Positions 1-6,901 of a stretch of DNA of 64,000 nt are shown in pieces. Each line of letters starts with the position of its first letter. The first letter of the stretch is position 1. Source of the stretch: Pseudomonadota bacterium. Lineage in GTDB: Bacteria > Pseudomonadota > Alphaproteobacteria > GCA-2731375. The translations under genes and the position numbers were made by a program. The notes beneath the pieces are model-generated. The model worked only from the letters and a program-made list of their open reading frames with translations, had not been told where the DNA came from and did not search any database. The stretch is taken from positions 1 to 64,000 of the forward strand of contig JAQBYC010000005.1 of NCBI GenBank assembly GCA_027623205.1. Direction: 5' to 3'.

Positions 1-129
1 TTCGCGAAAATAGAATCGTCTCACTCCAGCAGAATCCCGGCCTCTCGGCAATACTGTCGTGTAGTGTGCCTCTAGTTCATTGGAAATTGTTCTCGCACAC
101 GTCATATTGAATTGGGTTCCGAGCAGGCC

Positions 130-2418
130 ATGCGTTCAATTCGCTTTATAAAACGCCAGATGGTGTATGTCATACCAGTCTTGATGCTGATGGCGTCTCT
201 TGGCTTGCGATTGGAGAACCCACCGTTTCTACAGGTTTTTCAGTTGAAATTGTTTGATCTTTACAACCAACTGCACCCTCGAGACTATCAGCCCGTGCCG
301 GTTGCAACCCTTGATCTGGATGATGAAACATTGTCTCGCAGCGGCTTGCAATGGCCCTGGCCTAGAAGCAAACTAGCCGAGATGCTGGCCCGATTGTTCA
401 ATGCCGGCGCCAAGGTCGTGGCATTTGACGTCGTCTTCGCCGAACCGGATCGGACATCACCGCGGCAAGCTCTATCAATCTGGCTGAACCAACCAAGTTT
501 GGATATGGAAAAGCTGTCACCAGCGGCCAGGGCGTTCTCGAAGCCAATCATCGATTCCATTCCCGACCACGATGAGGCATTTGCCGATATTATCGGCCAG
601 ATTCGCGATGCGGCAAAGGACCACGGCGTGATTGCCGGTGTGGTCTTGACCAACGAACTCAGCAAGAACAAGCCAGCGGTAAAAGCGGGTTATGCCGTCA
701 ACGGTGACGATCCGTTGCCCTTCCTGAACAATTACTTCGGTGCCGTCGTCAATCTACCCAGTATCGAAGCCGCTGCCTCTGGGATTGGCAGTTTCAATCT
801 GACACCGGAAAGTGACGGTATCATCCGCCGGGTGCCAACTTTTGTACGCATCGACAAGCAGATCTATCCGAGCCTGTCCTTGGAAGCCCTGCGGGTCTTC
901 CAGGGCGCGTCAACCTATATCTTGAAGTCTTCCGGCGCGAATCTAGAGGAAAATTTTGGCGAAAAAACGGGCCTGAACCACATCAAGGTGGGCCGCCTGG
1001 AGATACCGGTAGATGGCGAGGGGCGGTTTTGGGTGCATTTCGCCAAATCGACATCGGAACGGGTGATCCCGTTGTGGAAGGTTTTCGAGAAGGACTTCGA
1101 TCCGGCGCTGGTCGCCGGGAAAATTCTGTTTTTCGGCACATCCGCTGCAGGCCTGAAGGATTTGCGCGCAACTCCCTTGAATCCCGCGGCGGCCGGCGTT
1201 GATGTGCATGTACAAACGGTCGAACAGATATTGTCAGGGCATTTTATGGAGCGCCCCGATTGGGCTGACGGCATGGAAAAGGTCTTTATTCTGGTGATGG
1301 GGCTGATCTTGATCATTCTGACACCACGCTTTGGCGCCATGCCAGGCGCCGCCATCTCACTGGGCACGGCCATCGGAGCCGTGGCGATGAGTTGGTATCT
1401 CTATACCGACAAGTTGCTTCTGGTGGATCCGATCTATCCGGGCATAGCCATTCTGGCTGTCTATTTGTCCAGTTCGGCCATTATGTATCTGCGTACCGAA
1501 GCTGAGCGGGAGCGTGTACGCGGCGCCTTTAGTCAATATCTTTCGCCGGCGCTGGTTGAACAACTTGCCAGGGAGCCGGACCGGCTGCGGCTGGGTGGTG
1601 AAAGCCGCAACATGAGCTTTTTATTCTGCGATGTACGCGGCTTCACTTCGATCTCTGAATCATTCAAAAGCAATCCGCAGGGTTTGACCCGCCTGATCAA
1701 CCGCTTCCTAACCCCTCTGACCGACGCCATTCTGGCCCGTCAGGGCACCATCGATAAGTATATGGGCGATTGCATCATGGCCTTTTGGAACGCCCCCATG
1801 GAAGATCTGCAACATCCCCAGCATGCCTGTGAATCGGCGCTGGCGATGTTTGAGGAACTGGAAAAATTAAATCAGGACCTTGAGACGGAAGCCCTCGAAA
1901 ACGGTGAAGAGTATAAACCCTTGAATGTCGGAGTCGGCATCAATACCGGCGATTGCGTGGTCGGTAATATGGGGTCCGAGCAGCGCTTCGACTATTCGGT
2001 TCTGGGCGATGCCGTGAACCTGGCCGCCCGTCTGGAAGGGCAGTCCAAGAATTACGGCGTCGGCATCGTCATTGGCGAGGACACGCAGTCGATGATCAAT
2101 GATGATTTTGCAACCCTCGAATTGGACCTGATCGCCGTGAAAGGCAAAGCGGAAGCCGTGCATATACATACGATCCTGGGTCGGAAGGAAATGTTACAGC
2201 AGCAGGACTTTCTCGCCCTGAAAGCACAACATGTCGCTATGCTGGACGCCTACCGTCAGCAGGATTGGGCCAAGGCCCATGAATTGCTCAAGGAATGCCG
2301 ATCCGCCGATGGCAGCTTTGGCGAATTGTATGACATGTACGAAGAACGCGTCGATTTCTATATGGAAAATCCGCCTGACCCCAGCTGGGACGGTGTCTTT
2401 GTCGCCACCACGAAATAG
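130..2418 (+). CDS. CHASE2 sensor domain adenylate/guanylate cyclase (class III)
   Basis: Extracytoplasmic CHASE2-like N-terminus (LFDLYNQLHPRDYQPVPVATLDLDDETL), TM segments, class III cyclase motifs FLFCDVRGFTSISE, TIDKYMGDCIMAFWNAP, GVGINTGDCVVGNMGSEQRFDYSVLGDAVNLAARLE. ATG at 130 is in frame with the upstream TTG at 112. Confidence 0.93.
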   Translation: MRSIRFIKRQMVYVIPVLMLMASLGLRLENPPFLQVFQLKLFDLYNQLHPRDYQPVPVATLDLDDETLSRSGLQWPWPRSKLAEMLARLFNAGAKVVAFDVVFAEPDRTSPRQALSIWLNQPSLDMEKLSPAARAFSKPIIDSIPDHDEAFADIIGQIRDAAKDHGVIAGVVLTNELSKNKPAVKAGYAVNGDDPLPFLNNYFGAVVNLPSIEAAASGIGSFNLTPESDGIIRRVPTFVRIDKQIYPSLSLEALRVFQGASTYILKSSGANLEENFGEKTGLNHIKVGRLEIPVDGEGRFWVHFAKSTSERVIPLWKVFEKDFDPALVAGKILFFGTSAAGLKDLRATPLNPAAAGVDVHVQTVEQILSGHFMERPDWADGMEKVFILVMGLILIILTPRFGAMPGAAISLGTAIGAVAMSWYLYTDKLLLVDPIYPGIAILAVYLSSSAIMYLRTEAERERVRGAFSQYLSPALVEQLAREPDRLRLGGESRNMSFLFCDVRGFTSISESFKSNPQGLTRLINRFLTPLTDAILARQGTIDKYMGDCIMAFWNAPMEDLQHPQHACESALAMFEELEKLNQDLETEALENGEEYKPLNVGVGINTGDCVVGNMGSEQRFDYSVLGDAVNLAARLEGQSKNYGVGIVIGEDTQSMINDDFATLELDLIAVKGKAEAVHIHTILGRKEMLQQQDFLALKAQHVAMLDAYRQQDWAKAHELLKECRSADGSFGELYDMYEERVDFYMENPPDPSWDGVFVATTK

Positions 2419-2701: not shown

Positions 2702-3739
2702 GTGGCGAATGGCGGACGCAACATGAGCGACTTGGAAAAAGTTAACGGGCACAAGCCCAAGGGGCTGCTGCCCATGGCTTTCGCCGCGGCATTGCCGTCG
2801 CCGGCGGAAGCGGCAAAGCTTCCTTTTGACGTGGGCGCAGCGCTTTCGGCGGTGGTGCAGCTGCATGCCGAAATTCCGGCCGACGGTTATACTGCGCCCT
2901 TCCTGGGCACCGAGCGGGACGGCAATGGCGTGGTCATCGATGACCGCGGCCTGATCCTGACCATCGGCTATTTGATCGTCGAGGCCATGGCGATCGCCGT
3001 CAACGCGGCCGATGGGCGCATGATCGCGGCCGAAGTCGTCGCATATGATTATGATACCGGCTTTGGTCTGGTGCGGGCGCTGGAACCTTTGGGCCGGCCG
3101 GCCCTGGCCATGGGCCGTTCAGCGGACTTGGCGGTGGGAAATGGGGTTCTGATCGCCGGCCACGGCGGTCACGACGGCGCCATTGGGGCCCGGGTCGTGA
3201 GTAAACGGCGATTCGCCGGCTATTGGGAGTATATGCTGGACGAAGCCATCTTCACCTCGCCGGCTCATCCGAATTGGGGCGGCGCGGCCCTGATTGGCCC
3301 GGACGGCAAATTATTGGGCATTGGCTCGCTATATGTAGAGGATGCAACCAACAGCCCGGACCCGGTTAGCGGTAACATGTTCGTCCCCATCGATCTTTTA
3401 CCGCCGGTCTTCGAGGAAATGTTGAGCGAGGGGCGTACGGCGGCATCGCGCCGGCCCTGGATGGGTATGTTCACGGCGGAGGTCGAGGGCCAGGTTGAGG
3501 TCATCGGTCTGGCCCAGGATGGCCCGGCGGAACGTTCCGGTCTCCAGAGCGGCGATATCATCGTCAAGGTGAATGGCGAAACCATCGCCTCAATGGCCGA
3601 TCTGTACCGCAAGGCATGGTCCGCCGGCCCAGCCGGCGTGGACATATCCATGACCGTCCTGCGCGACACCTACGCTTTTGATTTATCCTTGAAATCCGAG
3701 GACCGGTATGCGCGTCTAAAGCTTCAACGTAATTATTGA
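2702..3739 (+). CDS. HtrA/DegP-like (S1C) protein with C-terminal PDZ; catalytic triad apparently lost (pseudoprotease)
   Basis: Trypsin-like layout GNGVVIDDRGLILTIGYLI...YDYDTGFGLV...HPNWGGAALIGPDGKLLGI plus PDZ GLAQDGPAERSGLQSGDIIVKVNGETI. Confidence 0.8.
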   Translation: MANGGRNMSDLEKVNGHKPKGLLPMAFAAALPSPAEAAKLPFDVGAALSAVVQLHAEIPADGYTAPFLGTERDGNGVVIDDRGLILTIGYLIVEAMAIAVNAADGRMIAAEVVAYDYDTGFGLVRALEPLGRPALAMGRSADLAVGNGVLIAGHGGHDGAIGARVVSKRRFAGYWEYMLDEAIFTSPAHPNWGGAALIGPDGKLLGIGSLYVEDATNSPDPVSGNMFVPIDLLPPVFEEMLSEGRTAASRRPWMGMFTAEVEGQVEVIGLAQDGPAERSGLQSGDIIVKVNGETIASMADLYRKAWSAGPAGVDISMTVLRDTYAFDLSLKSEDRYARLKLQRNY

Positions 3740-4395
3740 TTAGCATGAGCACGAGGAGAAGAAATTTGCAGTCACGCCGGTCATTTCTATTCGGCTGTAC
3801 AGCCGTTGGCGCAGCGTTGTCCGTGCCGGGTTCATTGTTGGCGGAGGTCACGAGCCAGGCTATCGAGGGCTCGTCAGCCTTCATTGCCGACCTAGCGGGC
3901 CGGGCCATCGATATCCTGCAATCCAGCGGCAAGAACTTGGAGCAAAGGGAAGCGCAATTTCACACCCTGTTGTCCAACGGTTTTGATATGCCTTTTATCG
4001 CCCGCTTTGCTTTGGGCAAACACTGGCGTAAGGCAACGCCGCAGCAGCGGGCGGACTATCAGGCGCTGTTCGAGGAGTTCATTCTGAAAACCTACAGCCG
4101 CCGCATGGGTGGCTATGCCGGTGAAACCTTTGCCGTGTCCGATGCCAGACCTGCCGGCAAAAAGGACGTCATGGTGAAGACCCACATCAACCAGCCAGGC
4201 GGGCCGCCGATCAATGCGGACTGGCGCGTCCGGCCACGAAACGGCCAGTACAAGATTATTGACATCATGGTCGAAGGCGTTTCGATGGCCGTCACCCAAC
4301 GTTCTGAATTCAACGCCGTGGTCGGGCAACAGGGCATTCCGGGCCTGCTGCAGGCATTGCGCGCGCGCACCGAAAAACTCGGCGTGGCTTCATAG
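3736..4395 (+). CDS. MlaC/Ttg2D-family phospholipid-binding ABC transporter component, Tat-like signal
   Basis: SRRSFLFGCTAVGA signal; FDMPFIARFALGKHWRKATPQQRADYQALFEEFILKTYSRR and QYKIIDIMVEGVSMAVTQRSEF are typical MlaC motifs. Overlaps the preceding stop. Confidence 0.9.
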   Translation: MISMSTRRRNLQSRRSFLFGCTAVGAALSVPGSLLAEVTSQAIEGSSAFIADLAGRAIDILQSSGKNLEQREAQFHTLLSNGFDMPFIARFALGKHWRKATPQQRADYQALFEEFILKTYSRRMGGYAGETFAVSDARPAGKKDVMVKTHINQPGGPPINADWRVRPRNGQYKIIDIMVEGVSMAVTQRSEFNAVVGQQGIPGLLQALRARTEKLGVAS

Positions 4396-4416: not shown

Positions 4417-5286
4417 ATGAGAAATGACCCGATCTTTCATTGCCGTGCCGCACGGACGCAGCTTACCCGATGGCCGGGGAAACTGATCCGGAGCTGCCTG
4501 CTTCTGGTATTCGTTTTGGCCGGATCCGCGGCAACCGCCAATGCGGCGGACTTCAAAGCCGGCTCCGCGGCTTATCAACAAGGCAATTTTGCCGTTGCCG
4601 CGAAAATATGGCGGACCCTGGCGGAGGAAGGGGACGCCAAGGCGCAATACAACCTGGGGATCCTGTTCGATCAGGGTAAAGGCGTGCCCCAGGATCCGAC
4701 GGAGGCCATACGTTGGTGGCGGCGGTCGGCGGAAGGCGGCTTTCGCGATGCCCAGCACAATCTGGCCAATGCTTATATAGCCGGCGACGGCGTGGCGCAA
4801 AGCTACAAGGATGCGGCGCATTGGTTGGAACGCGCGTCTAAAGCGGGCTTGAACCGCGCCAGTTATTCGCTTGGCAAATTGTACCAATACGGTCTCGGTG
4901 TGCCGATGGATATAAAACGGGCTGCGATGCTGTTTCAATCGGCGGCGGATGCCGGTTTGGACAAGGCGCAATACAATTTGGCCAAAGCCTATCGTGACGG
5001 CGACGGCATTGCCCAGGATAACGCCCTCTCCATCAAATGGTTTCGCCGCGCCGCCGAACAGGGCTATGCCAAGGCGCAAAGCCATCTGGCAACCCGTTTT
5101 GCCAGGGGCCAAGGGGTCGACACGGACTTGATGGAAGCCTTCAAATGGATGAGTCTGGCCGCCCGCCAGGGGCATTTGCAGGCGCGGGAAAATCTACGTG
5201 TATTGAAATCCCGCCTGACGCCAGAGCAACGGGCGGCAGGCATGCGGCGCGTTGCTGATTTTGTTCCCGTCAAGGAGGACGGTTGA
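4417..5286 (+). CDS. Sel1-like repeat (TPR-like) protein with signal peptide
   Basis: Repeated A-xx-G-xxxAQ(Y/H)NL-xx-(Y/L)-xxGxGVxQDxxxAxxWxRxAAExG units. Confidence 0.92.
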   Translation: MRNDPIFHCRAARTQLTRWPGKLIRSCLLLVFVLAGSAATANAADFKAGSAAYQQGNFAVAAKIWRTLAEEGDAKAQYNLGILFDQGKGVPQDPTEAIRWWRRSAEGGFRDAQHNLANAYIAGDGVAQSYKDAAHWLERASKAGLNRASYSLGKLYQYGLGVPMDIKRAAMLFQSAADAGLDKAQYNLAKAYRDGDGIAQDNALSIKWFRRAAEQGYAKAQSHLATRFARGQGVDTDLMEAFKWMSLAARQGHLQARENLRVLKSRLTPEQRAAGMRRVADFVPVKEDG

Positions 5287-5386: not shown

Positions 5387-6901
5387 ATGACAAAACGCGG
5401 TTCAGTGGCGGCGGCCCTGCTGATTGCTGGTATTTTGTGTTACGGCTGGGCAGCCGCCGCGGCTAGTCCCAAGCCAACCTTCCGCGATTATTTCGAAGCC
5501 GCGGTCCGTACCGCCGACAGCGGCAACCAAAACATCGAAAATCGCCGCCGCCGGATAGTCGCGGCGCTGTCGCCGTTGGTTACGCTGGCTATTGTGCAAC
5601 AACCAGGGCAAATCGACGCCATCATGGGCGCACTGGTCGCCGCCGCGCCGGACGTCGCCCCGGCAATCGCTGAACAGGCCATGACGGAGTTTCCCGGTTT
5701 TGCGGGACAAATTGCGGATGCCGCCGGCCTGGAAAGACCTCATATGGCGGTGATGCCAAGCGTTGTGCCCGCGAGGTCAACGCCCTTCCCACGTAGCGAA
5801 CCTACCGTCCGGCGCGCCAACGGACATACGGCCCGCACCTCCGCCTGGGCGATCTCGGCCATCGCCGATAATCCAGGCGCGTTGGACGATATCATGAGCC
5901 GCGCCATTGCCGCGGCCCCAGGCGGTGAGATGGACCTTGTCGCAGCCACGCAGGCGGCCTATCCCGGCTTCGCGCCGCAAATCGCCGCGGCCGCCGCCGC
6001 GCCACGCACCGTGTCCCGCCCGCCTTTGACATCAACACCCGAAATGCGGCCCCCGGAAAGATCCCGCGCCGCCGCGCAATATTCGGCAAAACGGCAACCG
6101 ATCGTGCGGCCTACTGAAGCGCCGGCCCCGGTGGCGCGGGCCCCCGTAACGTACCAAGCCAAGGCACCAAACACCGCCGCGCGGAAAACGCCCGCGGCCC
6201 CGGTCGAGACGGCGCAACCAGCTGTCGCCGAGGACGATACTATTGAGATCGACGATCCGTTGGAGCCGATGAACCGGATCATCTTCGCGTTCAACGACAC
6301 ACTCGATTTGATCCTGCTGCGCCCCATCGCCATAGGTTACAACTGGATTTTGCCTGACGTGGCCCGTGAGGCGGTGCGGCGAGCCGCCTTGAACCTGGAT
6401 GCCCCGGTCATCGCGGTCAACGATCTGTTGCAGGGAGACCTGGCCGATGCCGGTGTCGCCCTGGGCCGCTTTGGCATCAACACCACCATCGGCTTTTTAG
6501 GTCTGCTTGACCCGGCGGCAGACTTTGGTTTGAAACGCCATCATGCCGACTTTGGCCAGACCCTGCACAGCCATGACGTAGGCGCCGGCCCCTATTTGGT
6601 CCTACCCCTGTTGGGCCCGGCCAGCACCCGTGGCGGTGTTGGCAAGTTGGTGGATATCTTCTTCCAGCCCATGACGTATTTGTTGAGTACCGGGCAAAAT
6701 CTGGGCGTCGCCGCAACACGCGCCGTGGTCAGGCGCGAGGAACTGCTGGATCCGCTGGATGAATTGCGTGAAAACTCCATCGATTATTATACCGGCCTGA
6801 AAGCTGCCTTCTGGCAGGCCCGGCAGGTGGAGTTGAACAAGGGTACCTTGGTTGGCCTGGGCAATGGTGGTGCCGACAAGTTGTTCGACGCCGCCAATTA
6901 G
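5387..6901 (+). CDS. MlaA/VacJ family protein with about 280-aa N-terminal extension
   Basis: C-terminal half DPLEPMNRIIFAFNDTLD...GRFGINTTIGFLGLLDPA...DFGQTLHSHDVGAGPYLVLPLLGPASTRGGVGKLVD is MlaA. The N-terminus is Ala/Pro-rich with a repeated module. Confidence 0.9.
   Translation: MTKRGSVAAALLIAGILCYGWAAAAASPKPTFRDYFEAAVRTADSGNQNIENRRRRIVAALSPLVTLAIVQQPGQIDAIMGALVAAAPDVAPAIAEQAMTEFPGFAGQIADAAGLERPHMAVMPSVVPARSTPFPRSEPTVRRANGHTARTSAWAISAIADNPGALDDIMSRAIAAAPGGEMDLVAATQAAYPGFAPQIAAAAAAPRTVSRPPLTSTPEMRPPERSRAAAQYSAKRQPIVRPTEAPAPVARAPVTYQAKAPNTAARKTPAAPVETAQPAVAEDDTIEIDDPLEPMNRIIFAFNDTLDLILLRPIAIGYNWILPDVAREAVRRAALNLDAPVIAVNDLLQGDLADAGVALGRFGINTTIGFLGLLDPAADFGLKRHHADFGQTLHSHDVGAGPYLVLPLLGPASTRGGVGKLVDIFFQPMTYLLSTGQNLGVAATRAVVRREELLDPLDELRENSIDYYTGLKAAFWQARQVELNKGTLVGLGNGGADKLFDAAN

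Follow-up and report, generated by a model that had tools for sequence, protein, structure and literature searches.

A distinct family of putatively non-proteolytic HtrA descendants, encoded beside mla genes in an alphaproteobacterial lineage

Catalytically dead HtrA proteins as such are already known. MamO, which descends from HtrA, is non-catalytic but binds metal and promotes the activity of MamE; it features a Thr as predicted nucleophile, a TauE-like transporter domain and, on its surface, a metal-binding di-His motif (PMC4794232). Inactive copies are also found among MamE1/MamE2, HtrA paralogue pairs in which one triad is degenerate (PMC4794232). Here, we analysed a 64,000-nucleotide stretch of alphaproteobacterial DNA (the window; contig JAQBYC010000005.1), which encodes a member of a further, apparently non-proteolytic group of HtrA descendants that we call the pseudo-HtrA family. 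As in the S1C proteases DegP, DegQ, DegS and Deg1, a Trypsin_2 fold is followed by PDZ, and sequence homology is clear. However, the family lacks the catalytic His, Asp and Ser, has a rebuilt GNSGG motif and L3 region, carries one PDZ domain only, and stands apart in the tree as a clade with a long branch. It resembles MamO as an HtrA fold reused without apparent proteolysis, and an L1 loop with a bulky Trp has been reported for MamO, too (PMC4794232). In contrast to MamO, it has a PDZ but no transporter domain and occurs beyond magnetotactic bacteria. The distinguishing residues of MamO are also absent from the window protein, which has Gly186 at the nucleophile position and belongs to a family with no invariant His among 45 aligned members. 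Unlike in MamE1/MamE2, both copies of a pseudo-HtrA pair are triad-less and differ by an export leader.

The mechanical open reading frame covers positions 2702-3739 of the plus strand, and the original prediction had counted the gene from its first codon, GTG 2702. The peptide MSDLEKVNGH and the coding pattern begin at ATG 2723 in ten relatives, whereas the upstream DNA is unconserved. We therefore assign ATG 2723 as the start of an intact gene of 338 codons (2723..3739, plus strand, as are all features of the locus given below). Its N-terminal segment (residues 1-35, 2723..2827, MSDLEKVNGHxPxGLL...AKLPFDV) is conserved in the clade. Pfam detects a Trypsin_2 domain in residues 66-199 (2918..3319; E 2.8e-14, 54.5 bits versus a cut-off of 27.6) as well as a PDZ_2 match in residues 246-316 (E 2.4e-10, 41 bits versus a cut-off of 27). 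The PDZ domain as a whole extends over residues ~245-318 (3455..3676), includes the invariant P245, W246 and G248, and is kept, as had been proposed. In the Pfam scan of the 338-residue protein, no families other than Trypsin_2 and PDZ exceeded their cut-offs. Neither Pfam nor NCBIfam holds a model specific to the pseudo-HtrA family, and the NCBIfam models degP_htrA_DO (76.4 bits, cut-off 416) and DegS (72.9 bits, cut-off 423) score the window protein far below threshold. A single-chain AlphaFold2 model built from the family alignment reached pLDDT 90.5 and pTM 0.88. Among solved structures, the chains of DegP, DegQ and DegS come closest; Foldseek returned DegQ, DegP, Deg1 and DegS as best matches of the model (E ~1e-22 to 1e-19, best 2.6e-22). 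TM-scores to full HtrA chains over both domains were only about 0.4-0.6, which probably reflects the orientation of the PDZ domain. Judged by homology, the window protein is an HtrA/S1C descendant composed of a trypsin fold and a PDZ domain.

To locate the catalytic positions, the window protein was aligned by MAFFT with the true HtrAs of its own genome and with E. coli DegP. In addition, a profile of 45 family members was aligned to HtrAs by hhalign (99.8% probability, E 3.1e-28). Both alignments agree that H105, D135 and S210 of DegP correspond to Tyr83 (TIGYL; 2969..2971), Gly113 (DYDTGFGLV; 3059..3061) and Gly186 (NWGGAAL; 3278..3280), respectively. Thus, all three catalytic residues have indeed been lost, as originally predicted. 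The GNSGG oxyanion-hole motif is absent and PNWGGAA is found in its place. The earlier reading of a Ser to Trp replacement was off by one: Trp185 occupies the position of the Asn that precedes the catalytic Ser, and it is Gly186 that replaces the Ser itself. The same replacements recur across 153 homologues, which rules out a one-off loss in the window genome. All 153 are of the T[IV]G[YF] and GFGL type: the His position is taken by Tyr (149) or Phe (4), the Asp position always by Gly. The Ser position is more variable: once near-copies were taken out, Gly was present in 94 of the remaining 129 members and Ser in 23, the rest having A, Q, T, N or P.

We also considered a protease whose catalytic set has moved or is otherwise unusual. 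Ser202, Glu169 and Tyr83 are indeed invariant in the 45-member alignment, and some members keep Ser at the nucleophile position (11 of the 47 exported, 12 of the 82 leaderless ones), so that residual chemistry may conceivably persist in these proteins. However, none of the thirty invariant columns, to which Gly113 belongs, is His, Cys, Asp or Lys, which argues against a displaced triad. Moreover, no member retains the catalytic His or Asp, and the window protein has Gly in place of Ser. We therefore regard a protease of this kind as highly improbable. The original proposal of a non-proteolytic protein is favoured instead, since no alternative set of nucleophile and base is conserved and the whole family is fixed for the triad-less form.

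Comparison of the window gene with six relatives yielded dN/dS values of 0.07-0.14, that is, the gene is under strong purifying selection. Together with the open frames in relatives, this rules out a decaying pseudogene. As the replaced residues are fixed in 153 homologues and the gene is selectively maintained, the replacements reflect more than chance. Only one member in our surveys (L113; G209:C22) was flagged for an in-frame TAG inside the match. Homologues in relatives are 40-91% identical to the window protein. A search across bacterial and archaeal genomes found the family in alphaproteobacteria and Burkholderiales; of the genomes sampled, 42 of 398 from Pseudomonadota and 96 of 386 from alphaproteobacteria carry it. 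In Rhizobiaceae, Phyllobacteriaceae and Azospirillum, members reside on megaplasmids or chromids (e.g. NZ_CP119567.1, NZ_CP104972.1). When the family profile was run against 15 genomes, members scored 348-483 bits as compared to 103 for the best ordinary HtrA, and in wider genome surveys all matches reached at least 317 bits, apart from one partial match of 240. By these scores, the family is cleanly separate from the true HtrAs of the same genomes. Public records label its members "S1C family serine protease", and a literature search, with most subscription journals outside its coverage, did not find a triad-less HtrA clade of this size and separateness, with exported and leaderless copies in pairs, described. 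The family is apparently unnamed.

In the window, the gene follows a CHASE2-adenylate/guanylate cyclase gene (112..2418), which is a conserved upstream neighbour in the clade, and precedes an mlaC-like gene (3766..4395; Pfam MlaC, 156.5 bits), a gene for a Sel1-repeat protein (4417..5286; Pfam Sel1), which is kept together with mlaC in relatives, and an mlaA-like gene (5387..6901; Pfam MlaA, 207.7 bits). The mlaC-like product has a Tat-type leader, for which TIGR01409 scores barely above its cut-off. The order of these five genes is retained in 12 of the 14 genomes of the organism's own family that carry a pseudo-HtrA. An overlap of the gene with mlaC, as previously suggested, does not hold: a 4-nt overlap would need TTG 3736, the next possible starts are ATG 3745 and TTG 3766, and the gap between both genes ranges from a few nt to more than 100 nt among relatives. 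TTG 3766 is probably the correct start, as the TTGCAGTCACG start is conserved with a Shine-Dalgarno sequence in several relatives and the ATG is absent in one of them (L035). In one genome of the same family (G012), the cyclase gene upstream of an exported copy is split in two (L066:6885-10423) by two ORFs of ~486 and ~258 aa, which recur elsewhere in that genome (L065) and look like an insertion element. The window genome (G000) encodes five MlaC-family and two MlaA-family proteins (contigs C74, C39, C173 and C106; window 3898-4362), so mla genes are not confined to the window locus in this genome, and a second MlaA-MlaC pair lies on C74.

The linkage to mla genes is lineage-specific. A survey for the triad-less form beside mlaC identified the 12 genomes mentioned above and one locus from another GTDB family (L192), but most members are encoded far from mla genes, and family-wide linkage was not observed. 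Elsewhere, copies have varied neighbours, including GGDEF-EAL genes, metabolic genes and ileS/ribF. Comparison of gene neighbourhoods across the family did not reveal a universal functional partner, nor did the varied neighbourhoods outside the window lineage point to one. An old arrangement of pseudo-HtrA, GGDEF-EAL or MlaC, Sel1, MlaA, a hexapeptide protein and DUF1611 is seen, whole or in part, in several GTDB families (L071, L195, L067, L192). The pseudo-HtrA is no known component of Mla lipid transport, and it shares with this system the gene-cluster linkage in the window lineage. An envelope lipid role, as envisaged by the original prediction, is thus possible for the window protein: the mlaC linkage in its own family and in L192 lends it weak support, whereas the unlinked majority of members does not.

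Members were classed as exported or leaderless by N-terminal hydrophobicity (Kyte-Doolittle, 11-residue window) and the VNGH/NGHRP motif, which is a heuristic of our own rather than a signal-peptide predictor. On this basis, one exported and one leaderless copy were present in 31 of 31 two-copy genomes examined (probability about 7e-11 under independence, shared ancestry being ignored); two-copy genomes outside this count include G662, G741 and G745. Trees of the protein core place both classes on two sides, with few exceptions.

The window copy combines traits of both classes. Its N-terminus contains a borderline hydrophobic stretch (LLPMAFAAAL) and an AEA-A site, and its locus is of the exported-copy type: L192 has an exported copy with a clear leader ahead of MlaC and Sel1, and in G012 the exported copy comes directly after the cyclase. 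These observations, along with mlaC as the next gene in 12 genomes, would fit an exported periplasmic chaperone or scaffold for MlaC, MlaA or the Sel1 protein. Yet most members are located away from mla, exported ones included, and the window N-terminus KVNGHxPxGLL...AAKLPFDV aligns with leaderless paralogues, e.g. L082/L172 (KVNGHRPVGLLHLLHPALKAAKLVPLKDVPFDV), L042 and L171. Furthermore, neither the -3/-1 cleavage pattern nor a positive n-region is retained throughout the clade; several members have lost the -3/-1 site and carry a neutral or negative segment ahead of the hydrophobic stretch. We consider a periplasmic Mla scaffold doubtful.

Alternatively, the window copy may have lost export and act in the cytosol like the widespread leaderless paralogues, its position beside mla being merely inherited. 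Besides the shared N-terminal motif and the unretained cleavage site, this agrees with residues 1-14 being under stricter constraint than the rest of the protein (dN/dS 0.03-0.065 in the four comparisons that allowed its calculation) and with the full-length tree, which groups the window clade with leaderless copies at 97/92. However, the full-length and core-only trees disagree on the class of the clade, as the latter put it at the boundary between exported and leaderless copies, and an AU test of the clade joined with the exported group gave p-AU 0.283, which does not separate the two placements. The exported-type locus also speaks against a cytosolic protein, as does hydrophobicity: values of 1.43-2.11 for the clade (window protein 1.94; the more distant L120 2.32) exceed those of all other leaderless members (maximum 1.26) and fall between both classes (exported minimum 1.77, median 2.67). 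Sliding identity between paralogues, inspected as a check for gene conversion, provided no clear signal either way. On balance, we slightly favour a non-exported over an exported window protein, and a cytosolic pseudo-HtrA whose mla linkage is inherited position only appears plausible, at somewhat less than an even chance.

By analogy to MamO and MamE, the protein might instead regulate an active HtrA, either as a dead subunit in mixed oligomers or by activating a true HtrA of the same cell. MamO/MamE provides a precedent, although the MamO-MamE interaction itself was not detected (PMC4794232). True HtrAs do coexist with pseudo-HtrAs in the same genomes; the window genome has at least two that bear the triad, and ordinary HtrA work is thus covered. 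A further HtrA-like stretch on its minus strand (G000:C40:16745-17677) contains one in-frame TGA, which may point to a broken HtrA or to an error in assembly. However, we saw no true HtrA gene linked to a pseudo-HtrA gene, and a periplasmic HtrA would be out of reach for a leaderless copy. Regulation of an active HtrA therefore seems improbable.

Taken together, our data suggest, with reasonable though far from complete confidence, that the window gene represents a distinct, old family of dead HtrA descendants, which most likely function as non-proteolytic binding modules for protein segments or C-termini. Both the trypsin fold and the PDZ domain persist, while the triad and the regulatory L3/activation region would have been rebuilt into an equally conserved new surface. 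Indeed, the former His and Asp loops, the L3/activation region and the Ser loop, which changed together, now rank with the best-conserved parts of the 45-member alignment, marked by the motifs TIGYLxxEA, D..TGFGL and FAGYWEYMLDEAIFT.P.HP.WGGAAL. The remodelled cleft and the PDZ domain would together capture a protein segment or C-terminus without cutting it, and the protein may thereby act as a chaperone, an adaptor or a sensor. In the window lineage, it would probably be made together with MlaC, the Sel1 protein and MlaA by co-transcription. More speculatively, the cytosol/envelope pair found in many alphaproteobacteria could constitute an ancient two-compartment system for non-proteolytic client binding, in which case the window lineage, with one copy of hybrid or intermediate character at its mla locus, might preserve a record of the compartment switch.

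These observations imply that many database entries named "S1C family serine protease" may be dead, considering that roughly a quarter of sampled alphaproteobacterial genomes carry the family. The loss of the whole triad, conserved under strong purifying selection, suggests that the HtrA fold can be retained purely for binding. With exported and leaderless copies paired, what this fold does on either side of the membrane could be tested cleanly by genetics, and the window lineage provides a testable tie between a pseudo-HtrA and lipid transport.
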